A DNA stretch of 64,000 nucleotides from positions 1,802,545 through 1,866,544 of the forward strand of contig NC_088790.1 in NCBI RefSeq assembly GCF_949628265.1, in the 5' to 3' direction. Under the pieces are notes generated by a model. That model did no database searches. It was not told the DNA's origin and saw only the letters and a program-made list of their open reading frames with translations. Numbering within the stretch: the first letter of the stretch is position 1; every line of letters begins with the position of its first letter. This DNA is from Cloeon dipterum. Taxonomy: Eukaryota > Arthropoda > Insecta > Ephemeroptera > Baetidae. Positions 8,960-39,800 of the stretch are shown in pieces. The translations under genes and the position numbers were made by a program.

Positions 8960-9640
8960 AACTGCCATTTTTTTAGGGAAGTGATCGGATCTCAATAAAT
9001 TTTACATTTTTCAAATCTGCTCAGCGAGACGAATCGAATGATATGCCAATTTCCTATTTTTGCATCAGTTCTTGATTTTCCGAAATTTTCCAACAAAAAA
9101 TGTGCTAGGAAAATCGCATAAAGAAAGGTTACGACTTGTGGATTGTCTTTCCTTGTGGATTGATTTTCTTCAGATCCAAACATCTCAACTTTTCAAATAA
9201 ATTTTCCGGGAAATTGGGGGAAGGACAATAATGAAAATGGTCGGATTTCTATCAAATTTACATTATTGGAATCTGCCTAGTGAGACGAATCGAATGGTGT
9301 GCCACTTATTAAATGCTTATTACGAAAAAGTGAATTTTCCGTAATTTTCTAGCAGAAGTGTTTTGGAAAAATCGCGTGTAGAAGAGCAACGGCTTGTAGT
9401 AGAGTTTTGATTTTTTCAATGATGATGTCATAAAACCAAGCAGTATTTTTCCTTGTAAAATTTAATTATTATGAGTAATTTTTAAAAACGACTTTCTCGG
9501 GTAATTATTGGTGTTGGATTTTAATAAATTATACATTTTTTTAATCAGCTAAGCGAGACAATTCGAATATGATGTGCCACTTTTATACTTTTGCGAATCT
9601 TTTTTAAAAAAAATAAAGAATTGCTTTTGCACCTCAACTT
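8960..9640. repeat. Family E tandem repeat, about three diverged units
   Basis: Three diverged units of roughly 250 bp start near 8975, 9240 and 9510. Each has the order: GGATCTCAATAAATTTTACAT-like, TCTGCTCAGCGAGACGAATCG, ATGATATGCCACTTTT, ACTTTTGCA, then a TTTTCC-rich tail. The same words recur around 37.2-38.1 kb and 62.7-63.8 kb. There are no open reading frames. It lies directly downstream of the histone 3' stem-loop. Confidence 0.7.
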
Positions 9641-9650
9641 GCGAATTTTT

Positions 9651-9666
9651 GGCCCTGAAAAGGGCC
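9651..9666 (-). terminator. Histone mRNA 3' stem-loop
   Basis: On the minus strand the sequence reads GGCCCTTTTCAGGGCC: a perfect 6-bp stem with a TTTC loop, flanked by AAAAA on the 5' side and AAAAAT on the 3' side. This matches the conserved stem-loop bound by SLBP that forms the 3' end of replication-dependent histone mRNAs in place of a poly(A) tail. It lies 40 bp after the H1 stop codon, within the normal distance. It identifies the neighbouring reading frame as a replication-type histone gene. Confidence 0.93.
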
Positions 9667-9706
9667 TTTTTGGATACTTACGAACAAAAAAAGAAACTAT
9701 ATACGA

Positions 9707-10090
9707 CTACTTTCTCCTCTTGGTAGGCTTGGGAAGCTTGCTCTTCGCCTTGAGGCTGGCGATGGACACGCGCGGCACCCTCTTCCTCGCCAGTGTCTTC
9801 AACGTCCTGATCTTCGCAAGCTGCACCACGGCCTCCCCAGATGCGTCCTGTGGCCTTACCTTCTTGGTTTTGGTCTTCTCGTCGGGCTTGTTGACCTTCT
9901 TGACGACTGCTGCTTTCTTCTTCCTGGCCAACTTGAAGGATCCGTTGGCGCCCGTCCCTTTGGTCTGGATGATCCTGCCGGCCTGCACCTCCTCCCGCAG
10001 GAACTTGCAGATGCGGCTGGCGAAGCGCTGCATGTCCAGGGTGTACCTCTCCAGGATGAACCCCTTGATGGCGTAGAGTGAGGATCCACC
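9707..10090 (-). pseudogene. Histone H1, 3' part (globular domain and basic tail), cut off from its start
   Basis: Encodes residues 44-170 of a linker histone. It reads GGSSLYAIKGFILERYTLD, then RICKFLREEVQAGRIIQTKG and TGANGSFKLARKKK, which is the winged-helix H15 domain of H1, followed by a lysine-rich tail ending KLPKPTKRRK and stop. The frame is intact to the edge of an LTR at 10091, where it stops being H1. The other 43 codons lie at 14503-14631 beyond the retrotransposon. With one 4-bp target copy removed the two parts total 513 nt, a clean 170-residue frame with no internal stop. H1 proteins are usually longer (about 190-260 residues), so this is a short variant. A histone 3' stem-loop follows. 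In this haplotype the gene should not yield normal H1 unless the element is absent from the other allele. Confidence 0.9.
10087..10090. repeat. Target-site duplication, left copy (CACC)
   Basis: CACC abuts the outer end of the left LTR (TGTGCC starts at 10091). The same CACC occurs at 14499-14502 after the outer end of the right LTR. On the H1 coding strand this is GGTG, inside the RGGSS motif of the globular domain. Four-bp duplications are typical of Ty3- and BEL-class integrases. Confidence 0.85.
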
Positions 10091-11295
10091 TGTGCCGACT
10101 GCTCGGGTGTCGCGGGGCTCGGTCCGCGCGCTCGGGCGCGCTCACGGGGTTCTGGGGTCGGTGTCTAGGGGGGAGGGTTGACCTCACTTGGGATTCTTCG
10201 CTCGCGGCACAAATAGCTAGCTTACTAACAATCTCTAACCTGACTTAAAGCGCTACTGAAATTCTAGAAACAATTCTACCTAGTCCTGGTTTAAGGGTAA
10301 ATGTTCAGAAGGGAAAACAAGCAGGGTTTGGCAAGCAAGGGAACCGATTTTATTGGCAAACTAATTTAATTACAAAGTGAAATTGGCTCTACTTTAATAG
10401 GGCAGGAAAACAGCTCTGAAGGAGCTGTGAAAAACCTCCCGAAAGAAAAAGTGGCTTTAATCTACTGAATTTAATTGACTTTAATTTGAGAGAAATTACA
10501 AAGATTGGGTTTGGTGTGTTCGCCGGTGGCGGCCAATTAGCGGGCGCCCAAGTCAGGCGGCGGCCTTCTCACAGAGAGGCCATGCCCTGGACTTGGTGAC
10601 AACGCGTCCCACACAGGCCACACCGACTAGCACAACCGTTTCCCCAATTTGCAAGCCAGACGCGGAACTCACGGGCGAGAAGCGGGCTAATAACTGTGAC
10701 AAAACGCGACAAAGTCACGTCCAGAATGCCGCGTACAGTCCTAGCCACGCAAGTTCCACGCAATCTGACGCAATCAGCCGCCAGAAACAGAAACTTAATC
10801 GATCCGCGATCATCCGCTCTAAATCGCGCTTTAATCCGGTGAGCGGCGCACGCCCGGCTCACCGACAAGCGATATCTCTCACAAAACAACGAAAATTACA
10901 AAGAAAAACCGAATAATTCGCCAAATTCGCGCGGGACCACGCCAAGTCTCTCTACTTGCGTGCTCTGTCCCGCGCTATTCTCGCTTCACAATCCGCCAAA
11001 TCCCACTAAATCCCGCTAACCTTTCTCTCGCCTACGCCGCTCAGGGTTCCTGGACCTCCGCAGGTCGCCAGGACCGCCCCGAACGCTCACAAAACGCGCT
11101 GGATCGACGCCACGCCGTGTGCTCCCTGCACCCGCGTTCGCTCGCTTCCAGACTCTCTTCCAGACTCTCTTCCAGACTGCTGTCTAGCGCGCGCAGCGCT
11201 CTGATTGGCCGTGAGCGCTAGGCTCGCCTATTACGCTCAAGTGCCAACTTATCTTTTGACTAGGGCGGGCGGGAACAAGGGGGATCACGGCCACA
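10091..11295 (-). repeat. 3' LTR of the retrotransposon (element orientation)
   Basis: 1205 bp, TG...CA ends, the same length as its partner at 13294-14498. It contains a short tandem TTCCAGACTCTC repeat near 11147-11180 and GC-rich blocks. The 106- and 107-residue open frames inside it occur identically in both LTRs and look like chance frames. Being on the same strand as H1, its own poly(A) or promoter signals could affect H1 transcription; no specific signal was pinned down. Confidence 0.9.
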
Positions 11296-11379
11296 TGCCC
11301 CCCAGAAATTTACCTGGGGGTGCAACCTCCAGGGAAATTTCTCACAACAAGGGGGACACGGCGCGAAAACTTTGGCATA

Positions 11380-13197
11380 TTAGTGGAGAACCACTTTAAT
11401 GCGGTGATTTGACCAAAGGCTTGACGCCCTCGGTCTTGGCCAAGATGGTCGGCGCTTCTTGAGCGCCGCCAACAGGCGGTGGTTGTCCCACCACTGACTG
11501 GCCTTGAGGGGTTCACCAAACCTCCTCGAAGCCATCAGCTTAAGCCTGTGGTTTGACCACTGGCGGCTCGCTTTCGCGTGCATGGTTTCTTCTTGCTGTC
11601 GGCGACGCGCCGTCTTCGTCTGCCGCTGGCCTTCAGGTGGTCTGCGCCTCCTCCTCCTTCCTTCACGGCGGCAGGATTGGGGGCCTCTCTTTCTCCTGGG
11701 CTGACGTCCATCAGGCTCGTCCTGCATCGGCTCCAGAGCAGGCCAGGTCCTCCGAGGACGCGTCATCTTCGCACGTCGGCTTCGGTTTCGTCTGGTCTTC
11801 ATCCTGTGGTTTGAGCAGACACTGCTCGAGCGCGGCCGCTTTAGACCGCGGCTCTGTTGCTCCTTGGTAGGAGACTCATTTCTCGCCCTGGCGTACACTT
11901 CTGCCAGTTTGACGTCACATCTTGGGGTTTTGAATGGGGCCTTAGGTGGCACCTTTACAGGTAGCACCTCAGGGGGACCCTCAATTGGGCCGTGGCTTTG
12001 CGCCTCTGGTGGCGCAGCCAGCGTCACAACAGGTGGCGCTGAACGCGGCTGAACAAGGGGCGCTGGTGGCGCAACATCTTGTTCCCTCTCAGGCAACGCT
12101 TTAGGTACCGCGCTGCGCGGCACGTCAGGGGGCACCACAGACAGAGCCTCGCGCCGCTCAATCAGCAGCGTTGGCGGCACCTCAGACGGCGTCACCCGCA
12201 GCGGCGCCTCATGCGGCACCTTACACGGCGCTGGCGGGATGGCAGCCAGCTCCGGATCAGGTAGCACGGCGGACAGAGCCCCCTCAGGTGGCGCAATGTG
12301 CTGTACCTCACGCTGCACCACACTAGGCGCAGGTGTCACATCAGGTGGCGCACCACGCGGCTCAGAGGGCTGTGCCGTCATTGGGCGCGACTCCTGGAAC
12401 CTGAGTGGCCGCTTTTCGCGTTCCTCCCAAGCGTCTCTTTCCGCCCAAATCGTGACAAGCTCCATGCGGAGCTCTTTGATCCGGTGGTTAGCCGAACCAG
12501 GTCCACTCATCCAGTCAATCGCCTTGGCCTGCTGTCTGACTTCAGCCAGTTTCACCTTTACGGCGTCTGACTTCTGCCGGAAGAGGTTCTCAGCCCTCAG
12601 TTGTCGTTCCGGCGAAACCCACCATTCCATAAGTTCAAGTTCTTCTCGCGTTAGTTTCGTCCGCCGGCCTTGCCAAAGCCGTTGTGTGATCTCTCGAGCC
12701 TGCAACTCACGAGAATCATCAACAGGAGCAGCCATCAGGCGCTCGTACTCGAGGACGTAGCATTTGCGCTCCTCGTCTGTAGTCTGACGGCTCCCCTCGT
12801 CAACCGTCGGAGAATACGCCTCATTCGGCATCGATGGCGACGCCGGCGGCACCGCAAGCGGGGCCAGGGGCCTGGCAAGCGGGGCCGTGGGTATGGCAAG
12901 CGGGGCTGTGGGCCCTGCAAGCCGGGCCGGGCGCGCTTCTTCACCAAGCCGGGGCCAGTCGAAGCCGACCATGTACCCAATCACACACTGGCTTGCAGCC
13001 GCAGGTGACTGGACAGGCGGGCCAAGCCTCGAGGCGTCAATGAAAGGGCAGGGCCGACTCAGAAACGCGCCATTTTGCGGTTCTGGACCAGGCCATGTGT
13101 CCTCCACCTGAGGGCTCACAACTCGGGCATAGCCGGAGAAGTTTACATAGTCATTTCCAGGCAAGTTACAAAAATTTTTACCGTTAAACCAAGACAT
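11380..13197 (-). CDS. Retrotransposon internal ORF, possible Gag-like protein
   Basis: First ATG at 13197 gives 605 residues, starting MSWFNGKNFCNLPGNDYVNF. The frame is open further upstream but without an ATG. The N-terminal third is followed by a proline/alanine repeat tract (PLAIPTAPLARPLAPLAVPP), then a charged helical part (TREELELMEWW), a long Pro/Val-rich low-complexity middle and a strongly Arg-rich C-terminus. A short word (S/A)NHR(I/M/L)K recurs four times exactly and once as DNHRLLA, ending SLWSNHRIKVVLH. No CCHC zinc knuckle, protease or polymerase motif is seen. Position and basic tail suggest a nucleic-acid-binding Gag-like product, but this is inference; it may be a captured or novel ORF. 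Base composition is much richer in G+C than host introns. Confidence 0.6.
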   Translation of the reverse strand: MSWFNGKNFCNLPGNDYVNFSGYARVVSPQVEDTWPGPEPQNGAFLSRPCPFIDASRLGPPVQSPAAASQCVIGYMVGFDWPRLGEEARPARLAGPTAPLAIPTAPLARPLAPLAVPPASPSMPNEAYSPTVDEGSRQTTDEERKCYVLEYERLMAAPVDDSRELQAREITQRLWQGRRTKLTREELELMEWWVSPERQLRAENLFRQKSDAVKVKLAEVRQQAKAIDWMSGPGSANHRIKELRMELVTIWAERDAWEEREKRPLRFQESRPMTAQPSEPRGAPPDVTPAPSVVQREVQHIAPPEGALSAVLPDPELAAIPPAPCKVPHEAPLRVTPSEVPPTLLIERREALSVVPPDVPRSAVPKALPEREQDVAPPAPLVQPRSAPPVVTLAAPPEAQSHGPIEGPPEVLPVKVPPKAPFKTPRCDVKLAEVYARARNESPTKEQQSRGLKRPRSSSVCSNHRMKTRRNRSRRAKMTRPRRTWPALEPMQDEPDGRQPRRKRGPQSCRREGRRRRRRPPEGQRQTKTARRRQQEETMHAKASRQWSNHRLKLMASRRFGEPLKASQWWDNHRLLAALKKRRPSWPRPRASSLWSNHRIKVVLH

Positions 13198-13273
13198 AGC
13201 GCTATCAGGGTAAGCTAACTGGGTGCAAGAGGAAGGGCAGTACAAAATTTGCGAACAACAAAAAATGCACTGA

Positions 13274-13291
13274 TCCCGGCCGAGCCCCCAC
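13274..13291 (-). promoter_or_regulatory. Primer-binding site, tRNA-Pro type
   Basis: Reads TGGGGGCTCGGCCGGGAT on the minus strand, two bases inside the 5' LTR edge. It differs at one position from the standard tRNA-Pro primer-binding site (GTCC versus GGCC in the middle). It fixes the orientation of the element as minus and shows that minus-strand DNA synthesis would be primed by a proline tRNA. Confidence 0.85.
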
Positions 13292-13293
13292 TT

Positions 13294-14498
13294 TGTGCCG
13301 ACTGCTCGGGTGTCGCGGGGCTCGGTCCGCGCGCTCGGGCGCGCTCACGGGGTTCTGGGGTCGGTGTCTAGGGGGGAGGGTTGACCTCACTTGGGATTCT
13401 TCGCTCGCGGCACAAATAGCTAGCTTACTAACAATCTCTAACCTGACTTAAAGCGCTACTGAAATTCTAGAAACAATTCTACCTAGTCCTGGTTTAAGGG
13501 TAAATGTTCAGAAGGGAAAACAAGCAGGGTTTGGCAAGCAAGGGAACCGATTTTATTGGCAAACTAATTTAATTACAAAGTGAAATTGGCTCTACTTTAA
13601 TAGGGCAGGAAAACAGCTCTGAAGGAGCTGTGAAAAACCTCCCGAAAGAAAAAGTGGCTTTAATCTACTGAATTTAATTGACTTTAATTTGAGAGAAATT
13701 ACAAAGATTGGGTTTGGTGTGTTCGCCGGTGGCGGCCAATTAGCGGGCGCCCAAGTCAGGCGGCGGCCTTCTCACAGAGAGGCCATGCCCTGGACTTGGT
13801 GACAACGCGTCCCACACAGGCCACACCGACTAGCACAACCGTTTCCCCAATTTGCAAGCCAGACGCGGAACTCACGGGCGAGAAGCGGGCTAATAACTGT
13901 GACAAAACGCGACAAAGTCACGTCCAGAATGCCGCGTACAGTCCTAGCCACGCAAGTTCCACGCAATCTGACGCAATCAGCCGCCAGAAACAGAAACTTA
14001 ATCGATCCGCGATCATCCGCTCTAAATCGCGCTTTAATCCGGTGAGCGGCGCACGCCCGGCTCACCGACAAGCGATATCTCTCACAAAACAACGAAAATT
14101 ACAAAGAAAAACCGAATAATTCGCCAAATTCGCGCGGGACCACGCCAAGTCTCTCTACTTGCGTGCTCTGTCCCGCGCTATTCTCGCTTCACAATCCGCC
14201 AAATCCCACTAAATCCCGCTAACCTTTCTCTCGCCTACGCCGCTCAGGGTTCCTGGACCTCCGCAGGTCGCCAGGACCGCCCCGAACGCTCACAAAACGC
14301 GCTGGATCGACGCCACGCCGTGTGCTCCCTGCACCCGCGTTCGCTCGCTTCCAGACTCTCTTCCAGACTCTCTTCCAGACTGCTGTCTAGCGCGCGCAGC
14401 GCTCTGATTGGCCGTGAGCGCTAGGCTCGCCTATTACGCTCAAGTGCCAACTTATCTTTTGACTAGGGCGGGCGGGAACAAGGGGGATCACGGCCACA
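13294..14498 (-). repeat. 5' LTR of the retrotransposon (element orientation)
   Basis: 1205 bp; the same length and, as far as compared, the same sequence as 10091-11295. It would carry the element's promoter, pointing toward the internal ORF and toward the 3' half of the H1 gene. It is followed on its outer side by the right CACC target copy and H1 codons 43 to 1. Confidence 0.9.
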
Positions 14499-14502
14499 CA
14501 CC

Positions 14503-14631
14503 GCGCCGGTCCAAAGCCGTCAAGGCCTCCTCCACCATCACCGACGTCTTCGGGTGCTTCAGGGCGCTGATTGGGCGACTCCCTCCTGCAGCTGCGGCGG
14601 GGACTATTTCCTCTTCTTCGTCAGACAGCAT
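14503..14631 (-). pseudogene. Histone H1, 5' part (start codon to globular-domain helix 1)
   Basis: ATG at 14631 in a CAACAATG context begins MLSDEEEEIVPAAAAGGSRP, followed by the globular-domain opening HPKTSVMVEEALTALDRR (residues 26-43). The acidic N-terminus before the domain is unusual for somatic H1, which generally starts Ala/Pro/Lys-rich; acidic N-termini are known in some germline or embryonic linker histones. The frame runs straight into the LTR at 14502. Joined with 9707-10090 through a single CACC, it restores the RRGGSSL motif. Confidence 0.9.
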
Positions 14632-20536: not shown

Positions 20537-23500
20537 TTACATGTTCTCGAACTGGTCGACGCGGCGCTTGGTGTTGCCCTTGCGGATCTCGCGCAGCGTC
20601 TTGTACTTGTCGCGGCCCTGCCTCACGTTCTCCCGGTGGATCTTGTCCATGTGAGTCTCCTTCGTCTCGTCTCGCGTCTGCGCCAAGTCTTGCTTCAACG
20701 CCTGAAAAACACGAAACACGTTGGAAATTCAGTCTCGGAAGCGCTATTTTGCGGTTGATGGACTTTTTTATCTAACGTAAAGAAAGTTGAAAAGAGATAA
20801 AACTGCATTTTTGAAAAGTTTACATCTAATTAGAAAAGAGCACTTAGAATCTCTGAGCGCCTTGAATGTGCTCAGGTTTAAGATTTCAGGCTCATGAGAG
20901 ATTTCCTAAGCACCCTGATGGTTTTTGAAGGGTCAAATTAAAAGTCTCTCGACTAGGCCTTTGAAACGGTGTGAAAATCTAGCAAATCGAGCAATCACAG
21001 AGCCCATTTGAAGTGGTTTGAGGGCTACCTAGACGCTAGTATTCAATTTTTAACCTGTTCCGAATGTCTTGTCTGAATTCAGGGGCAACCCCAAGCATGT
21101 TCTGAAGGTAAATATCAATTGATCATGCAATTTAAAATTTTCTTATATGCACACTTTTTGACCATTGACCCTCCATATCACAGGAAATCAAATCTTCCCG
21201 ACCCTGAAAATTTCTAGGCATTTTACACACACTCAGGGCAAGAAATACCATGAAAATATTAAAAAATTGAGTGCATGAGATGTGATATATTCAAAATTTT
21301 TAAGAACATTTATCTCCACATTTCCCTCTGATTTTCTAAAAAAGTATATTTATCAAGTGGACATACCTTGAGTTGTGAGTGGAGGCGTTCGTTCCTCTCG
21401 GCGAGGGTGCGTCTGTCCTCGACGGGGTCAATGATGCCTTCGTGAGTGCCGAGGTCGCGGCTGACGTCTCCGTTCGGGATCTCGTCGTTCTCATCGTCGT
21501 TCTCGGCCACGTGGTGGTGCTGCGGCGTCGTGGTCACGGCCAGCAGGGCCAGCTTAGCCTCCTCCTGCCGCCTGATCAATTTGTTAATTAATCATCCTGG
21601 AATACTGCGGTGCAATAATTACTGTCGCGCGTCCTCGACCTCCTGCTGGAGTCTTCTGGTCTCCTCGTCCTTGACCTCCACCTCGGTCTGGATTCGCGAC
21701 ACCTCCTCCTGCTTCATCATAATCTCCTCCTCGAGCTTGGCGCGCTCCGCCGCCTCCATCTCCTTGCTCTCCTCCAGCCGGATCATCATGGCCTGTTTAA
21801 ATTAGAGATTTTAAGAGTTTCACTCTCGATCAACGTGTAATCAAGATTGATCAACGTGGATTCGATGTTGACCGTCAATTTTTTTAGTCATAAGCATGTT
21901 TCCAGGAGAGATTTTCAAATTACCCTGAAAACCCAACTAAATCTCTCCTGGAAACACCCGATCAACATGGATTCAGGGTTGTTTTGAGTTTAATGACCTG
22001 GAGCTCGTTCTGGCGCTTCTCGAGCTGGTCCTTGGCCTCCTGGAGCTGACGCAGCTGCTCCTCGAGTCTGCGGATCATCTCCTGGGCCTCGGTCAGCTCG
22101 CTCTGCCGCTTTTCCATCTCCTCCTGCATGGTGCGCAGCTTGTCCTCGTATTCCTGCTGCTTGCGCTCAGCTCTCTCGCGGGCAGCGATTTCCATCTAAA
22201 ATGTAATTGCAAAGTTGAAAAAAGGAGGTTTAGCACTTCTGTGACCTAAGGAAGGTCGGTGAAGGGGAAGGGTAGAAAATCATCAGAGTATCGCTAAATG
22301 TGCTCGAAATTACTGAGAGAGCATGAAAAAACAGCCTGGGAACGGATCACAGGTTGGGGTACCCTGAAAAAGGTCGTTGAGGTATTCCAGGTTAAAGTCC
22401 AATCAAACACCTGTTTGATGGGGGATCGCGGCTGACGATCGGAGAACCAGCTGAATTTTAAGAAAAAATTAACCGTTTTTTAAAATGTAGACTTTTTGAA
22501 AAATTATAAAAAAAAAACAAAAAAAATCTAAAAATAGCCAGATTTTAGAAAACCGAAAACAGGCGAACGCGCCCAAACAAAGGGTATCGATTGGTAATTG
22601 AATCAGCACCGAAACCAAAATTTTGAAATGTCACATTTCGCGTTTTTTTTCGACTTTAAAAATTAATAACTCTGCTCCTGTAGGTCATACAACGGAAAAC
22701 CAAAGCTCATCGGATTTGCCGTTAAATTCTTATGGTGCCCCCGCCCACCCCCATTATACCGATTTATTTCCGTCAAGGAGCCCCTCCGGTTCCGATTCGA
22801 AAAATGTTGCTTTACTGAATTCAAAATATTCCGGTTTGAGAAAAGGAATTGTGAAAAGGTTGCCGACCTGGAGCTTCTCGCGCTGCTGCTGCTTGGCCAT
22901 GCGCTCCTCGCGCGACTGGGCCTTCATCTGCTGGACGTCGATGGTGTCCGGCTTGCGGCGGCGCATATACAGCTCGTGGTTGCCCATGCACAGGGCCAGG
23001 ATGCGCTTGTTGATGCGCACGCGCGACGCGAAGAAGACAAAGTCGGGCGCCTTCTTGTCGATCGGCTTGATGATGAACTTGCGGTCCGAGAAGGAAATGT
23101 TGCGGATCTCAGACCACGGGAAGCCGATCTTGGGCGTCAGCTTGTCGTCCTTCTCGTAGATGTTCAGCCCCAAAGCGTCCACTCCCAACCACAGCTCCGT
23201 GTTCTTTTTGTTGCGGATCTCGAAGTAGTTGACGCCGTACATCTCAAGGTCCTGCGCGATCTTCAGGTACTCCATCATCGCGTCCTCTCTGCAAAAATAT
23301 TTCAAGAATTAGTCACATTTTTAGACGGTATTATGTCCTAGACCTGAGCTGTACCAGAAAAAGGGATTTCACGAGTGAAAAAATCTAGGTTTAAAAATAA
23401 AATATAAAGGCTATGGGAAAATTCAATTTTTCAGGGTGCGTTTTGGAGGTTCACCGTGATTTTCTGTACAAGTTGACCAAATTTCATAATGGCAATCGCG

Positions 23501-36882: not shown

Positions 36883-39800
36883 ATGGTCGGGCGATGCCTC
36901 GAGCCCATCAAGAGCGACGACTTGCCGCCGCGCGACGAAAAGCCTGACTTGGCCTCCGTACATTCCATGTCGAATTACGCCCTGCACCACCAACAACACA
37001 TCGCACCACCGGAATCCATCCAACCTGCCTCACCTGACCCTCCACAGACGGCAGTCACGCCTACAAGGTAATTTTATAAAAGACATTTTTTCATTTTTTA
37101 AATTTTTATCCCTAAAAATATAATCACGCTGAACTTTAAAAACAGAAAAATTAATAAATAAATTTGACTCCCAAACGCAAATAAAATGGGAAGTAATAAT
37201 TATGCACTATACAGAACGATTTTTTGTGGGAGAATTATTTATGAAAAATCCCAAATATTTCCAAAAGTATGTAAACGGCCAATCATTCAATTTGTCTTGC
37301 TGAGCAGATTCCAAAAATGTAAATTTTTTGAAATCCGATCACACAAGTTTTTTCCCATCCCCAATTTCTCGGAAAAACAGAATGAAAAATGGACTCCAAT
37401 TTTTCCAGAACGAAAGCCAAAATAACGCTTAATTTAATGGAAAGTATCCTAGCAAAAATTAAATCTCTGTGGCAAGCCCTTAAATTTCTGCACGCGATTT
37501 TCCCAGGACACTTCTGTTGGAAAATGAGGGAAAATACCGAACACAATGTATGAAAGGGGCAAATCATTCAATTTGTCTCGCCGAGTAGATTCCAAAAATT
37601 TAAAATTTATTGAAATCCGATTACAAATGTTATTTCCTTACCCCAATTTCCCTGTAGAGCCATTTGAAAAATTGTTTAGAGTTTGCCAGGACGAAATTTT
37701 TGAAATAGCTAAAAAAGCTTTTGATTCAGTGGAAACTATCCTTGAAAAACTGGAATCTCTCTGACAAGCCGTTGCATTTCTGAACGTGAATTTCCAAGAG
37801 CGCTTTTCCGTTGGAAAATCCTGTGTTTTCCAATCGTCTCGCTGAGCATATTCCAAAAATGTAAATGTTATCGAAATGCAACCACAAAATGCCCAATTTC
37901 CCGGAAAAACAGTAACACAAATCGACCCGTATTTTCCAGCTAAAATTGTTGAAATCAATATTAATTAAAATTATTGGAAAAATGAAATCTCTGCTGCATT
38001 TCTATACGTGTGATTTTACCAGAGCAGCTTTCCGTTGGAAAATTTCGGAAAATCACAAATATTTCTAAAAGTGAACAAGTTAACCATCAATCGATTCGTC
38101 TCGCTGAGCAGATTCTAAAAATATCAAGTTCATATAAATGCGACCACTTTTCAAGAAATTATTACAAAAGTTGTTTTGTCTAATTCTCAATAAAAACACT
38201 CGTGAGCGCAGCAATCACCAGGAGCTGGGCGGTGTGATCCGCGAGGCGACGTCGCCGACGGACTCTGAGGACCACTCGGACCCGAACACGAAGCCGCCGT
38301 ACAGCTACGTGGCACTGATCGCGATGGCCATCCAGAGTTCGAGCATGAAGAGGGCCACGCTGAGCGAGATCTACAACTTCATCACGTCCAAGTTCCCCTA
38401 CTTCGAGCGCAACAAAAAGGGCTGGCAGAACTCGATCAGGCACAATCTGAGTCTCAACGAGTGCTTCGTCAAGGTGCCAAGAGAGGGCGGCGGCGAGAGG
38501 AAGGGTAACTACTGGACGCTCGGTGAGTACAAAATCCGGAAACAACAAACAACAAGAAGGCGTGGCTCAGATCTGAACGGATCTGAAAGCGCGGGAAAAT
38601 CATAAATGTTTTTAATGAAAACTCGCTGGTATTTTGATAGAGGGGCGTGGTTTGATTGACATTTCAAAAAGAAGGCGTGGCTCGCTGAAAAGCGCGGGAA
38701 AATAACTGTTGATTCGCCGAACTATTCGAATATTACATAACATTGCGTCATATATATATATGTACATGTGCACATTTTAATCGAATCTAGCGCCTGCGGA
38801 TCGGAAAGGTATACAACCCTAGCAGCAGGTGAGCCGAGACGGTTGCATACCTGAGACGATGGCAGACGCCAAAGTTTAAATCGAATCAAGATCCTTATTT
38901 TAAATTAAAATTTATTTTCGCGCGCTTTGCGACGTGTGCCATGCCTTCTTCTGATACCTTAATCCAAATTCCAAATTACTCTCTTGTCTTTTTTAAAATC
39001 CTGGGAGCCACGCCCCCTTTCAAAATTTCGCGGGAAATATTTCCAGCTCCTTATCTGCATAAAATAAAAATGGAATTTACTTGATTTTGGTTTTGAATTT
39101 GGCCAAAAATAAAAACCATGCCCCTTTTCGTTCTTTGGTCGGCAGACCCGCAGTACGAGGACATGTTCGAAAACGGCAACTACCGGCGGCGGCGGCGGAT
39201 GAAGCGTCCGTACCGGTCAGCGGGCGGCTACGCCAAGGCCTCCTTCTTCACCGAGTCGTTCGCGCACACGCTGCCCCTGAACGGCCGCAACCTGTTCAGC
39301 CCTCCCGCCTACAACCCCTACCCCAGGTTCGTGGGGCCAAAAACTAACGGCGAAAGACGCGTATTATTGGATCAAGAATTAATTGCATGGTTTCAGTCCC
39401 AGCTGGCCGCCCCTGCACAGCGCCGCCTACTCAGGGTGCCAGTCGGCCCGCCCTGGCGCACCCCCGGCACACCAGAGCGTCGCCCCCACCCTCTTCCAAC
39501 CCCTCGCCTCCTCGCAGGTATTACAAGCATGAGTTTATTTCACTTTCTGTTATGATTAATTTTATTTTTCAAATTTTGATTCGATTTTAGAGCTATTATT
39601 ATTATGCTAGAAATGGAGAATTAATTTTTTAACCCTGATTCAGCTTGAGGAACTTTAGAAATGTACTTAAAAGGTTTCTCAAGGCATGTGAGAACTTGTG
39701 TGAAAATTTCAGAGTGATATCTTTTTTGTTTTCGAGGTATATCGAAAAATAGGAATTTTTCCCATTTTTGGCCACTCCAAATCTCGGGTTTTAATCACCA

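Follow-up and report, generated by a model that had tools for sequence, protein, structure and literature searches.

A divergent histone H1 gene interrupted by an LTR retrotransposon with identical long terminal repeats

Introduction

Was a working linker-histone gene recently broken by a mobile element at this locus, or does its interrupted reading frame have another origin? The gene lies in a window of 64,000 nucleotides (contig C5:1802545-1866544, G+C content 41%), which is the whole stretch of DNA analyzed here and belongs to an animal genome, probably that of an insect, and its minus-strand coding sequence is broken by a 4408-bp LTR element at positions 10091-14498. We consider it very probable that the locus as a whole is best explained by the recent insertion of a non-autonomous LTR element into a working H1 gene, giving a null allele. 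This is a familiar kind of event in an uncommon target gene; among the publications judged by title, no report to the point on H1 genes broken by LTR elements was found.

Anatomy of the Insertion

Along the gene strand, 43 codons starting with the ATG (14629-14631, with its A at 14631) are followed by GGTG, the element, a second GGTG, the remaining codons up to the stop codon and a stem-loop at 9666-9651. The 5' part of the H1 variant coding sequence, which comprises codons 1-43 in front of the target site, occupies positions 14503-14631 of the minus strand, and the 3' part, from codon 44 to the stop codon TAG at 9707-9709, extends over positions 9707-10090 of the same strand. The target-site duplication CACC abuts the exact outer edges of both LTRs, its upstream copy in the sense of the gene being located at 14499-14502 and its downstream copy at 10087-10090. 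The locus is an insertion of an LTR retrotransposon into a divergent H1 gene, accompanied by a 4-bp duplication.

The 5' LTR (13294-14498, minus strand, 1205 bp) starts with TGTGGCC and ends with CGGCACA when read on the minus strand. It is followed by AAG and then, three bases inside the LTR, by the putative primer-binding site TGGGGGCTCGGCCGGGATC (13272-13290, minus strand), which we take to resemble tRNA-Pro. At the other end of the interior the putative polypurine tract CTGGGGGGCA (11296-11305, minus strand) precedes and adjoins the 3' LTR (10091-11295, minus strand). The features by which LTR retrotransposons are recognized, namely two direct LTRs with TG...CA ends, a short target-site duplication, a primer site and a polypurine tract, are all present in this element. 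The positions of the primer site and the polypurine tract identify 13294-14498 on the minus strand as the 5' LTR and thereby support the same orientation for element and gene.

The initial annotation had described a very young LTR retrotransposon that splits an H1 gene and lies on the strand of the gene, and this interpretation is supported by the identical LTRs and the CACC duplications. The 4408-bp element, its two 1205-bp LTRs and the duplicated CACC were all reproduced. A base-by-base comparison of 10091-11295 with 13294-14498, for which no difference had been noticed before, gave 1205 identical positions out of 1205. Joining the flanks in silico with a single CACC, which corresponds to the empty site, led to 170 open codons, as had been stated for the sequence without the element and one CACC. 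The proposed cut between codons 43 and 44 is correct if the duplicated GGTG of the gene strand is counted rightward; the physical edge of the element, by comparison, is situated 133 bases past the A of the ATG.

The Interrupted H1 Gene and Its Relatives

The assignment of the frame to the linker histones, with a canonical 3' stem-loop, proved to be justified. The Pfam family Linker_histone (PF00538) matched the joined frame over profile positions 1-74 of 74 with 78.4 bits (cut-off 22.4) and placed the globular domain at residues 26-98; the 3' part alone reached 54.5 bits, from profile position 19 onward. Linker histones of the PDB matched the joined frame as well, the best of them being histone H5 (E 7e-9). 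The deduced protein consists of 170 amino acids, 41 of which are K or R, and has the acidic N-terminus MLSDEEEE. The coding sequence is intronless apart from the insert and is followed by the histone 3' stem-loop GGCCCTTTTCAGGGCC (9651-9666, minus strand), both being features of replication-dependent histone genes at the level of DNA.

A search of the same genome with PF00538 yielded four places, all of them on contig C5 (six of six candidates scored), and querying it with the joined protein (E up to 10) yielded five, which correspond to the two halves of the split gene and the same three further H1 genes. A search for other intact H1 genes had already been suggested in the initial annotation. 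These three, at C5:4216258, C5:19811526 and C5:16258524 (L003), are located on the contig of the window and resemble the split gene in their intronless open frames (215, 218 and 204 amino acids), the full Linker_histone domain and the stem-loops downstream. They differ from it in length (204-218 versus 170 amino acids), in the number of K and R residues (57-65 versus 41) and in a TATATAA motif, which three of three genes carry 51-89 bases ahead of the ATG and which the split gene lacks in its 300 upstream bases. The acidic N-terminus likewise sets the split gene apart from them. L003 itself is a moderately divergent H1, with a stem-loop of altered loop sequence, AGCCCTTCTAAGGGCT, versus AGCCCTTTTCAGGGCT in the two canonical genes.

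Comparison of the globular domains revealed 36, 37 and 36 of 72 residues to be identical between the split gene and the other three, which share 70, 59 and 59 of 72 residues among themselves. The corresponding pN values are 0.35-0.38 for the split gene versus the others and 0.02-0.12 among the others, and for the split gene versus L003 a dN of 0.53 and a dS of 0.79 were obtained, the synonymous distances being near saturation. Judged by these comparisons, the split gene is the most divergent of the four H1-like loci found.

Such fast protein divergence, together with the short C-terminal tail and the missing TATATAA, could also be expected if the H1 variant had already been a pseudogene and the element had struck dead DNA; with the pN, dN and dS values given above, an earlier decay that left the frame free of stop codons is possible. 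Nevertheless, we regard this as unlikely. All 170 codons are open, a state that only 24 of 10000 mononucleotide shuffles of the frame retained, and the GC3 of 0.82 is higher than in the three other H1 genes (0.71-0.77) and lies in a window with an overall G+C content of 41%. Moreover, the Pfam match is complete and the canonical stem-loop is intact, and the lack of TATATAA could just as well point to a different expression programme. On the basis of the GC-rich third codon positions, the full globular domain and the intact stem-loop, we infer that the split H1 gene was working until the insertion.

Each half of the gene was detected at a single genomic place (40 of 49 candidates scored; five of five in the search with the joined protein), and no second copy of the split H1 gene was found in the assembly. 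Since there is only one place for each half, an uncollapsed empty allele is not seen in the assembly either. The insertion may be heterozygous or somatic, and it may be polymorphic, as the initial annotation had suggested.

The Element and Its Family

The interior of the element comprises 1998 bp and contains one long reading frame with 637 open codons in all, 605 of them counted from a Met common to the copies (11380-13197, minus strand; stop codon TAA at 11380-11382). Searched at E up to 10, Pfam contained no family matching this frame, and the best PDB match to it had an E value of 0.29; a recognizable Gag capsid or zinc-knuckle domain was not detected in it by these searches. Likewise, reverse transcriptase, protease and integrase were not detected in the 1998-bp interior by Pfam, applied to its only long frame. 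The element therefore looks non-autonomous by sequence, and as no pol was detected, the enzymes for its mobilization would have been supplied in trans by an autonomous element.

Ty3/gypsy-type and non-autonomous LTR elements possess LTRs with TG...CA ends, produce 4-bp target duplications, carry a primer site and a polypurine tract and leave solo LTRs. The family described here is like the Ty3/gypsy type in all these respects, with the primer site by the 5' LTR and the polypurine tract by the 3' LTR. In contrast to autonomous Ty3/gypsy elements, the window element has a single frame without recognizable domain and without detected pol functions (reverse transcriptase, RNase H, integrase).

Further members of the family were sought with the LTR, which gave at least 50 matches (40 of 53 candidates scored), and with the interior, which gave 14 (eight of eight scored). 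Among the matches listed there are five full-length copies: the window copy, C4:23835679-23840062, C2:36792300-36796838, C5:21658332-21662848 and C5:775801-780156. Their LTR pairs differ, in this order, at 0 of 1205, 1 of 1193, 1 of 1203, 0 of 1191 and 0 of 1176 sites, and their interiors measure 1998-2135 bp. In all five copies AAGTGGGGGCTC directly follows the 5' LTR and TTCTGGGGGGCA directly precedes the 3' LTR. The long reading frame is open in all five as well (605, 605, 607, 650 and 650 codons), and its dN/dS between distinct copies amounts to 0.51-0.65; for both reasons it probably encodes a protein under mild constraint.

A 4-bp duplication flanks each of the five full-length copies and seven of the eight complete unpaired LTRs listed, the exception being L019. 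A preference of the element for one target motif was considered and rejected, as the duplications of the other four full-length copies (ATAG, CCTG, ATTG and CTTC) differ.

Substitutions between the LTRs of different copies amount to 1.9-3.6%, leaving aside the pair formed by the window and C4 copies, which indicates that several lineages each moved lately. The LTR family has probably been active recently. For the window copy, zero differences between the LTRs place the insertion no more than 2.1 to 4.5e5 generations back (95% upper bound) if substitution is assumed to proceed at 2.8 to 6e-9 per base per generation; gene conversion, as an alternative source of LTR identity, could make the insertion look younger. 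The locus and its relatives thereby document very recent movement of a non-autonomous LTR family.

The near-identical copy on C4 gives a reason to think of an assembly artefact, in which the element would have been wrongly joined into the H1 gene: misjoins are known to arise from identical repeats, and all 1998 bases of the interior recur unchanged at C4:23836872-23838869, within that copy. We nonetheless attach very little probability to such a misjoin. The 4-bp duplication is perfect and sits at the exact LTR ends, and both LTRs of the window copy contain a 12-bp unit of which the LTRs of the C4 copy have one fewer. Owing to this difference the window copy is not simply a misplaced C4 copy.

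Two other members of the family showed particular arrangements. At C4:18611837-18613029 a solo LTR matches the 3' LTR of the full-length C4 copy without any difference and has CATT on both sides, which may reflect LTR recombination already at a very young insertion. At C2:36247611-36258877 an LTR is split into the pieces 1-828 and 825-1205 by approximately 10 kb of other sequence, with AGTT at both outer ends, and this looks like a nested insertion.

Within the element frame, inspection by eye of window positions 11380-11830 (minus strand) revealed five NHR motifs in frame, four of them in the strongly basic C-terminal part. For two of the motifs the coding sequence consists of GTGGT...ACCAC inverted repeats, potential hairpins in the RNA. 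A tRNA-Lys call at 11429-11503, inside the open frame of the element, is probably spurious. At gathering thresholds, no Rfam family matched the window.

Consequences for the H1 Allele

The most probable course of events, in our opinion, is that a non-autonomous element from a recently active LTR retrotransposon family integrated at codons 44-45 of the divergent H1 gene. The H1 message would enter the LTR after codon 44, about one quarter into the globular domain, and the allele represented in the assembly is for this reason probably null.

The H1 protein would still be made, however, if the element were spliced out as an intron. On paper exact removal is possible, because GGTG and the TG...CA ends of the element together create GT and AG sites: joining GCG|GTGTGT in front to CACAG|GTGG behind restores the empty-site sequence with the frame exact. 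For a 412 insert in vermilion, splicing is named in the title of a reference within PMC2586383. Here, the donor ranks 14th of 307 GTs in a simple consensus score, and the acceptor 118th of 415 AGs in a crude pyrimidine score, with eight pyrimidines in 18 positions and another AG close upstream, while better-scoring sites exist inside the element. According to our own count, about one in 28 random 4-bp duplications would permit some exact GT-AG excision. Removal by splicing consequently appears highly improbable; if it did take place, one retrotransposition could turn an intronless histone gene with stem-loop into an intron-bearing one with the protein kept.

The likely effect of a null allele would be the loss of a specialized H1, perhaps a gonad-enriched one. 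Such a loss may be assumed since the split gene is the most divergent of the H1-like loci and the other three have open frames. Divergent H1 variants are described from insects. For Pteromalus puparum, PMC10264595 reports PpH1V1 and PpH1V2 as testis-enriched, rapidly evolving H1 variants that are generally single-copy in Hymenoptera; knockdown of one of them lowers sperm fertility and knockdown of the other is without detectable effect. From Nasonia, two single-copy protamine-like H1 relatives, Nv-PL1 and Nv-PL2, are described in PMC13148410. The wasp proteins are like the split H1 in being single-copy, divergent insect proteins with an H1 (winged-helix) domain. In contrast, the PpH1V1 and PpH1V2 genes, according to PMC10264595, have introns and polyadenylated mRNA. 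Due to its stem-loop and the lack of any intron in the coding sequence besides the insert, the split H1 was not grouped with the hymenopteran H1V1 and H1V2. In searches of the genome for signs of its host group, the hymenopteran family PF12278 gave no match, nor did any control, and COX1 gave one weak match of 138 bp, which contains stop codons and lies below the cut-off. Expression of the split H1 in the germline or gonad would be a guess by analogy with the testis H1 proteins of wasps.

As a knockout, the locus is clean and can be dated, and the gene affected looks like a specialized linker-histone variant for which a second copy was not found. If the insertion segregates, individuals with and without it would provide a natural test of the role of this variant in chromatin.

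Candidate Partner Elements and Surrounding Sequences

For an autonomous partner, a pattern composed of the LTR end and the primer site was searched with up to three mismatches and occurred at 78 places in forward and 76 in reverse orientation. The reversed control pattern gave 39 and 55, so that many of the places are attributable to chance. Five stretches of 5 kb were compared as partner candidates, one of them (L058) by a domain search and the others by their frame lists. L058 (C5:937800-942800) is gypsy-like, with a frame bearing a reverse transcriptase and the junction pattern with one mismatch; blastn at E 1e-3 detected no similarity between it and the window. L057 and L061 each have 46 bases at 89% identity in common with the window, and L060 had no match to it. 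L062 is a diverged relative with approximately 75% identity in two segments, each some 210 bases long, and contains no frame of more than 227 codons.

Just downstream of the H1 gene, the AT-rich segment at window positions 9200-9600 resembles dozens of places with 67-88% identity. It gave at least 56 matches including itself, many of them in the region from 1.6 to 3.0 Mb of C5, and represents a local dispersed repeat family. Among the neighbouring genes in the window, an exon at 22754-23305 encodes a FERM C-terminal domain and is presumably moesin-like, and a forkhead-domain frame is located at 38138-38605.
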